The notes beneath the pieces were generated by a model. That model saw nothing but the letters and a program-made list of their open reading frames with translations, ran no database searches and was not told the origin of the DNA. A stretch of 64,000 nucleotides of DNA from Streptomyces atratus. GTDB taxonomy: Bacteria; Actinomycetota; Actinomycetes; Streptomycetales; Streptomycetaceae. The stretch lies in the NCBI RefSeq assembly GCF_014648655.1, contig NZ_BMRN01000003.1, positions 266,335 to 330,334 of the forward strand. Reading direction: 5' to 3'. The position numbers were made by a program, and so were the translations under genes. Of this stretch, positions 52,211 to 63,512 are shown in pieces (position 1 is the stretch's first letter; every line of letters starts with the position of its first letter).

Positions 52211-52230
52211 CGTGTAGCTCTGCTCAGCCG

Positions 52231-52269
52231 CTGAGGCCCGGTACCCCGAGGAGGGGTACCGGGCCTCAG
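52231..52269 (+). terminator. groEL terminator
   Basis: A perfect 17-bp stem, CTGAGGCCCGGTACCCC (52231-52247) with GGGGTACCGGGCCTCAG (52253-52269), has a 5-base loop. It lies 20 bases after the groEL stop. Confidence 0.93.
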
Positions 52270-52320
52270 CACGTGCGGCCGAATCGAGCACGCCCGCGCG
52301 GTGATCGAGGGCATCTTTCA

Positions 52321-62092: not shown

Positions 62093-62428
62093 TCAGCCGT
62101 GTCCCGACGGGGACGGAAGGCCCGACGGCGCCGCTGCCGCGATCAGCCGGTTGCGGGCCCGTCCCATGAGCTCCTCGCGTTCGTCCTCGGTCAGTCCGCC
62201 CCATACTCCGTAGGGCTCTCGTACCGCCAGTGCGTGTGCTGCGCACTCGGCGCGTACCGGGCATCGCATACAGACCTCTTTCGCCGAGTTCTCGCGGGCG
62301 CTCCGTGCCGCCCCGCGTTCACCCTCCGGGTGGAAGAACAGCGAGCTGTCGACCCCGCGGCAGGCCGCCAACAGCTGCCAGTCCCACAGATCGGCGTTGG
62401 GTCCGGGAAGCCGGGAGAAATCTGCCAT
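62093..62428 (-). CDS. whiD: WhiD, WhiB-like iron-sulfur developmental regulator
   Basis: WhiD is needed for the last stage of spore maturation in Streptomyces and binds a [4Fe-4S] cluster. The 111-residue protein starts MADFSRLPGPNADLWDWQLL. Cys23, Cys53, Cys56 and Cys62 (CMRC and AEC) are the known cluster ligands. The GVWGGLTEDEREELMGRARN turn and basic C-terminus follow. It is divergent from bldM, with a 413-base intergenic region that holds a long AT-rich inverted repeat 70 bases from its start. The match to S. coelicolor WhiD is from memory and looks near identical. Confidence 0.97.
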   Translation of the reverse strand: MADFSRLPGPNADLWDWQLLAACRGVDSSLFFHPEGERGAARSARENSAKEVCMRCPVRAECAAHALAVREPYGVWGGLTEDEREELMGRARNRLIAAAAPSGLPSPSGHG

Positions 62429-62497: not shown

Positions 62498-62528
62498 ATT
62501 TACATCTACGGTGTAAGTAGATGTAAAT
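62498..62528. promoter_or_regulatory. long AT-rich inverted repeat upstream of whiD
   Basis: ATTTACATCTAC (62498-62509) and GTAGATGTAAAT (62517-62528) are perfect 12-bp arms around GGTGTAA. It lies 70 bases upstream of the whiD ATG in a very AT-rich patch. It may be an operator for whiD or a 5' leader hairpin. Confidence 0.9.
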
Positions 62529-62690
62529 ATGACTGATTGCGAATCTAGCCACAGACACCAGTAAAAGGGAAGAAAACCCGCCAAATAGGGCATACCTTCA
62601 CGTGAAGTTTCGGTTGACGGTTGGATGATCCGTGCCGCTCTCCTCCGTGCACGGGTCCTCACGTAGAGTGCCGAACCCGGCCGTCCGACC

Positions 62691-62841: not shown

Positions 62842-63453
62842 ATGACATCCGTCCTCGTCTGCGACGACTCCCCGCTTGCCCGAGAAGCGCTCCGTCGCGC
62901 GGTCGCGACCGTGCCCGGCGTCGAGCGTGTGACGACGGCGGCCAACGGCGAGGAAGTCCTCCGCCGCTGGGGCGCCGACCGTTCGGATCTGATTCTGATG
63001 GACGTACGCATGCCCGGTCTGGGGGGTGTGGAGACGGTCCGGCGGCTGCTCTCCGCCGACCCCGGCGCCAGGATCATCATGCTGACCGTCGCCGAGGACC
63101 TGGACGGTGTCGCGCTCGCGGTCGCCGCCGGTGCCCGCGGCTATCTGCACAAGGACGCCTCCCGTGCGGAGCTGCGGGCCACCGTCACCCAGGCGCTGGC
63201 CGATCCGACGTGGCGGCTCGCCCCCCGTCGGCTGCGGTCGGCCGAGATGGGTGCGGCGCCGACGCTCACCGCGCGTGAGATCCAGGTGCTCGAAGGAATG
63301 AGCCACGGCCGCTCGAACGCCGAGATCGGCCGTGAGCTGTTCCTCTCCGAGGACACGGTGAAGACGCACGCCAGGCGTCTGTTCAAGAAGCTCGGCGCTT
63401 CGGACCGGGCGCACGCCGTGGCGCTCGGCTTCCGCTGGGGCCTGGTCCGCTGA
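62842..63453 (+). CDS. bldM: BldM, orphan response regulator of aerial development
   Basis: BldM is a NarL/FixJ-type regulator that controls aerial hyphae and sporulation genes, as a homodimer or with WhiI. The ATG at 62842 follows GGAGG. The 203 residues begin MTSVLVCDDSPLAREALRRA; the receiver domain has Asp54 in LILMDVRMPGLGG. The LuxR HTH is LTAREIQVLEGMSHGRSNAE-IGRELFLSEDTVKTHARRLF. In S. coelicolor Asp54 is not required, so this is an atypical regulator. No kinase gene is adjacent. It is divergent from whiD, with shbA downstream. Confidence 0.97.
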   Translation: MTSVLVCDDSPLAREALRRAVATVPGVERVTTAANGEEVLRRWGADRSDLILMDVRMPGLGGVETVRRLLSADPGARIIMLTVAEDLDGVALAVAAGARGYLHKDASRAELRATVTQALADPTWRLAPRRLRSAEMGAAPTLTAREIQVLEGMSHGRSNAEIGRELFLSEDTVKTHARRLFKKLGASDRAHAVALGFRWGLVR

Positions 63454-63480: not shown

Positions 63481-63512
63481 ATTCCCCGTCCGCACACCGG
63501 CGGACGGGGAAT
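63481..63512 (+). terminator. terminator after bldM
   Basis: A perfect 13-bp stem, ATTCCCCGTCCGC (63481-63493) with GCGGACGGGGAAT (63500-63512), has a 6-base loop and lies 27 bases after the bldM stop. Between it and the next gene there is a second smaller GC-rich hairpin. Confidence 0.9.

Follow-up and report, generated by a model that had tools for sequence, protein, structure and literature searches.

What is the role of the perfect, AT-rich inverted repeat that lies upstream of whiD, a sporulation gene, in Streptomyces atratus? We analyzed a window of 64,000 nucleotides of this genome, in which the repeat occupies part of the 413-bp gap between whiD and the divergent gene bldM. Its two arms, ATTTACATCTAC (62498-62509) and GTAGATGTAAAT (62517-62528), are 100% complementary and flank the spacer GGTGTAA, and it ends 70 nt before the ATG that starts whiD at 62428 on the minus strand (MADFSRLPGPNADLWDWQ...). 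A first-pass annotation had given exactly this geometry and had also held that a chance origin was very unlikely. The expectations bear this out: a first-order Markov model of the gap predicts 0.0007 repeats with arms of at least 12 bp and 0.014 with arms of at least 9 bp. The GC-content of the gap as a whole is 55%, not 70%, because it consists of promoter DNA. Seven repeats with arms of at least 12 bp occur in the whole window, that of whiD being the sole AT-rich one, and 20 simulated windows yielded none with arms of at least 12 bp and an AT-content of at least 60%. The repeat is therefore real and exceeds what chance would produce in this gap. The coordinates of the features are given in Table 1.

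Table 1. Features of the whiD-bldM region, numbered from the first nucleotide of the window.
Feature	Position	Strand	Basis
whiD coding sequence, WhiB-like, CX2CX5C	62093..62428	-	Divergent from bldM, as in S. coelicolor (PMC5845573)
Perfect inverted repeat, 12-bp arms, 7-bp spacer (62510-62516)	62498..62528		Direct reading and conservation
Conserved core, 9-bp dyad TACATCTAC/GTAGATGTA	62501-62525		Direct reading and conservation
Right arm, read along whiD as GTAGATGTAAAT; GTAGATGTACGG in relatives	62498..62509	-	Alignment of relatives
Left arm, read along whiD as ATTTACATCTAC; final 3 bases of the predicted -10 and putative discriminator/start region, part of AGTCATATTTnCATCT	62517..62528	-	Tree changes and information content
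Predicted whiD -10 hexamer, CATATT	62526..62531	-	Conservation and spacing to the -35
TTGCGAA, sequence and relative position of S. venezuelae MtrA site III	62537..62543	+	PMC13189361 and spacing match
Predicted whiD -35 position, CTGTGG; TTGTCC, TTGAGG or TTGAGA in other genera	62549..62554	-	Alignment
bldM, divergent response-regulator gene	62842..63453	+	Profile matches and synteny

The product of the divergent gene gave NarL-type response-regulator matches that were all below the curated cut-off, and its identity as bldM is deduced from its synteny with whiD. The same divergent arrangement is found in S. coelicolor (PMC5845573). A GC-rich inverted repeat of 13 bp (63481-63512) directly follows the bldM stop codon and is likely a terminator hairpin. 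The longest inverted repeat of the window is a perfect one of 18 bp with a 5-nt loop (52230-52270). A second perfect palindrome, CTTCACGTGAAG (62596-62607), is present in the whiD-bldM gap; it is absent from relatives such as L031 and L120 and is probably specific to the species or its clade.

We gathered the DNA upstream of whiD in Streptomyces (g1) and in 16 further genera of the same family. Anchoring on TCATATTT or a close variant of it succeeded for 161 distinct blocks, of which 127 belong to g1 and 34 to 14 other genera. In the whiD sense, the consensus of the genus is CTAGATTCGCAATgAGTCATATTTnCATCTnCTTAGAnCGTAGATGTACGGTC. Its information content is close to 2 bits from AGT to CATCT except at n, ranges from 0.9 to 1.7 in the right arm and CGGTC, and falls to 0.1-0.9 beyond. 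The left arm (whiD sense) is embedded in AGTCATATTTnCATCT, a block that is essentially invariant in 126 Streptomyces and reaches 2.0 bits at nearly every position. Outside Streptomyces (34 rows), the AGTCATATTT part of this block is mostly retained, including in rows that lack the right arm. The right arm (GTAGATGTACGGTC, whiD sense) is more loosely conserved than the left, and the conservation on this side extends past the symmetry into CGGTC. As for the symmetry itself, arms of 12 bp were found in the present species only among the 126 Streptomyces. The outer 3 bp of the symmetry are species-specific, as relatives read CGG where the present species reads AAT. In 34 of the 126 Streptomyces the arms are 9-10 bp long, and this core has been lost in half of the genus. 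All seven sampled members of the sister genus g7 possess arms of 9-11 bp (9-10 bp in six of them and 11 bp in L173), including members with unrelated upstream sequence. Two relatives, L057 and L096, carry small duplications or insertions within the repeat (GTATTAGAGAGTGGGTGTA and GTAGATGTCAGTAGATGT), which are consistent with replication slippage at the dyad. Based on this comparison of 161 whiD upstream regions, the half-sequences and not the palindrome are what is conserved. Of the element that the first-pass annotation proposed to look for upstream of whiD in other Streptomyces, the half-sequences are thus kept but the 12-bp symmetry is not.

The conservation pattern points to a promoter. 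CATATT is invariant in the 126 Streptomyces and retained in most of the other genera sampled. A TTG-type hexamer is located 17 nt upstream of CATATT in 18 of the 34 non-Streptomyces rows (8 of 14 genera) and 18 nt upstream in five further rows from four genera. Together, 23 of the 34 rows present TTG at one of these two distances and nearly none at other spacings, and this spacing holds in genera whose upstream DNA is otherwise different. The Streptomyces hexamer at this position, CTGTGG, is a weak -35. We infer that CATATT is the -10 of a sigma70-type whiD promoter with its start near 62518-62520; the repeat would then extend from the -10 to about +20 of whiD. A single whiD start at -188 has been reported in S. 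venezuelae (PMC13189361); mapped onto relatives, it precedes the predicted start by about 70 nt. These two starts conflict, and either whiD possesses two promoters or its main -10 is an element other than CATATT. A mis-annotated whiD start codon in S. venezuelae was considered as the origin of the -188 value and rejected, as relatives present no in-frame start codon near +75. The WhiA motif GACAC was observed at the upstream edge of the predicted -35 (62554-62558, plus strand), where 100 of the 127 Streptomyces rows read GTGTC.

The first-pass annotation had offered a leader hairpin of the whiD mRNA as one function for the repeat. Under such a model, the transcript would carry the stem-loop at its 5' end or close to it, and the structure would protect the message or tune its translation. 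The repeat does fold strongly (-14.9 kcal/mol, z -6.5), and the whole stem would lie within the leader if the -188 start applies in the present species. However, the median energy for the genus is only -6.7, the left arm would be partly untranscribed if CATATT is the -10, and an Rfam search returned no match. We counted the changes in each arm on a tree built without the repeat itself. Nearly all of them fall in the right arm, with 5-17 changes per position against 0-6 in the left arm, where six of the ten stem positions (the -10 boundary itself and five positions beyond it) have not changed at all. Losses of pairing are about as frequent as right-arm changes, most of which are uncompensated. 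An independent-pairs test yielded too few contrasts. A clade of 61 species, which the tree traces to one origin (support 82), reads TTCATCTCC on the left, and this leaves two positions unpaired. In this clade, position 2 nevertheless keeps its right-arm partner and position 8 mostly does so, with the pairing base G in one sub-clade. Right-arm mean information is 1.61 bits in this clade and 1.55 bits in the other. Because the right arm keeps its sequence with or without pairing, selection acts on sequence and not on pairing. The mismatches counted over all rows and pairs also speak against the hairpin: T.G/G.T (62) is not the main class (T.C/C.T, 188; T.T, 104). Pair-preserving double changes do exist: CTCC/GGAG in one clade, A-T to G-C in L113 and L100 of g1, and two in L148 of g16. 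With these few restored pairs (L148, L100, L113), an earlier structural or dyad role is possible, but compensatory change has not upheld the pairing. Altogether, the 12-bp form is restricted to one species, the core is lost in half of the genus and the arm changes are mostly uncompensated; on these grounds selection does not preserve symmetry itself. This argues most strongly against the hairpin, which we consider possible but disfavored and, overall, unlikely.

The same loss of symmetry bears on a second possibility, a symmetric operator at which a dedicated dimeric repressor or activator would read the palindrome as such, through CTACT-N5-AGTAG half-sites 10 bp apart. The location of the repeat, over the predicted start site, is the classical one for a repressor, and the dyad of 9-10 bp recurs in 34 of 126 Streptomyces and in six of seven g7 members (11 bp in the seventh), some of them with unrelated upstream sequence. 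Yet half of the genus lacks the symmetry although whiD and the half-sequences remain. Across the 9.8-Mb genome, the exact repeat occurs once and no other copy was found with up to two mismatches, so such a protein would have a single target. Allowing up to three mismatches yielded four extra sites, against four with a reversed control pattern, which is the chance level; genome-wide searches for the repeat or its core gave nothing above chance. The lack of a second copy fits the expectation for a promoter-specific element. Moreover, the motif is absent among the Streptomyces developmental regulators that we reviewed. Taken together, this makes a dedicated palindrome reader quite improbable.

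The arms might also be unrelated conserved pieces whose symmetry is incidental, one being the -10 and start of whiD and the other the upstream portion of bldM P4, a minor promoter, or some other site. Their independent evolution, the species-specific outer 3 bp and the conservation that runs beyond the symmetry into CGGTC are all compatible with this idea. However, a 9-10 bp dyad common to the sister genus, together with several pair-preserving double changes, exceeds the expectation of 0.014 for arms of at least 9 bp, and we find this explanation hard to credit.

Several developmental regulators are known to bind this region. In S. venezuelae, MtrA has five sites between bldM and whiD (PMC13189361), and we assigned the listed sequences to the listed positions via the published spacings. 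These spacings (80/27/120/105) match L031, L034 and L039 exactly, so that in these genomes MtrA site III would adjoin the repeat and site IV (TGTCTAA) would form its center. The S. venezuelae sites III and IV (PMC13189361) would therefore share a DNA block with the repeat in near relatives. The predicted site III abuts the repeat and is retained in the present species and in 113 of the 127 Streptomyces rows. Site IV is not kept: the present species reads TGTAAGT, without C4, and T1 and C4 are both retained in just 29 of the 127 Streptomyces. MtrA reads 7-bp half-sites or direct repeats (PMC13189361), whereas the repeat is a palindrome. Further upstream, CTCACGTAGAGTGCCGAA (62658-62675, plus strand) is strongly conserved across Streptomyces and holds a degenerate BldD-like box and TGCCGAA, which corresponds, by the order published for S. 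venezuelae, to MtrA site II.

In both S. coelicolor and S. venezuelae, whiD is repressed directly by BldC, which binds upstream of it (PMC5859096, PMC6428758), and whiD was upregulated by a log2 value of 6.89 in the bldC mutant at one time point (PMC6428758, PMC5859096). Like the BldC operators of whiI and smeA (PMC5859096), the repeat is AT-rich promoter DNA of a developmental gene. BldC sites are, however, head-to-tail direct repeats, AATT(N3-4)(C/G) (PMC5859096), and such an array is not demonstrated in the repeat; these sites are not predictable from sequence (PMC6428758). BldD also binds the whiD-bldM region (PMC13189361, PMC6428758), and its consensus was not found at the repeat. None of MtrA, BldC and BldD is known to read this palindrome. 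BldM, the regulator encoded by the neighboring gene, does recognize palindromic DNA at its group I sites (TCACcCgnncGgGTGA; PMC4125116), but this site differs from the repeat in sequence and spacing. Sequence comparison revealed no resemblance of the repeat to the group I or group II motifs, and we rejected it as a BldM site.

On balance, we favor the interpretation that the repeat is part of the whiD core promoter and start region, overlaid by a loosely dyadic operator. The promoter, start and bound protein that we infer would be arranged as follows. With CATATT (62531-62526) as the -10, the left arm (whiD sense) would contain the last bases of the -10 together with the start region, and the right arm would cover about +10 to +20. 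One or more transcriptional repressors would read this DNA as two half-sequences and block RNA polymerase at the start site, which may hold whiD silent until sporulation. The best candidate for this role is BldC, and MtrA would bind within the same block. A drift of three bases in the present species would then have extended an inherited dyad of 9 bp to a perfect one of 12 bp. The operator of a developmental regulator proposed in the first-pass annotation agrees with this interpretation as to location, on the predicted whiD core promoter and in a region that MtrA, BldC and BldD are reported to bind, but not as to symmetry, which is not conserved.

Alternatively, a developmental repressor that reads the palindrome at a single target, or a stem-loop at the 5' end of the mRNA, could be dedicated to whiD in part of the genus. 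We regard this as very unlikely; if true, the way in which the last white gene is kept silent would vary between species. More generally, whiD is a late white gene, divergent from bldM, whose control is poorly mapped. Our comparison fixes a strongly conserved core of 16 bp and a predicted whiD promoter at a defined place, with published MtrA sites falling on the conserved core, and it predicts which bases to mutate. It also shows that a perfect palindrome, however striking, can be an addition peculiar to one species on an otherwise ordinary promoter.
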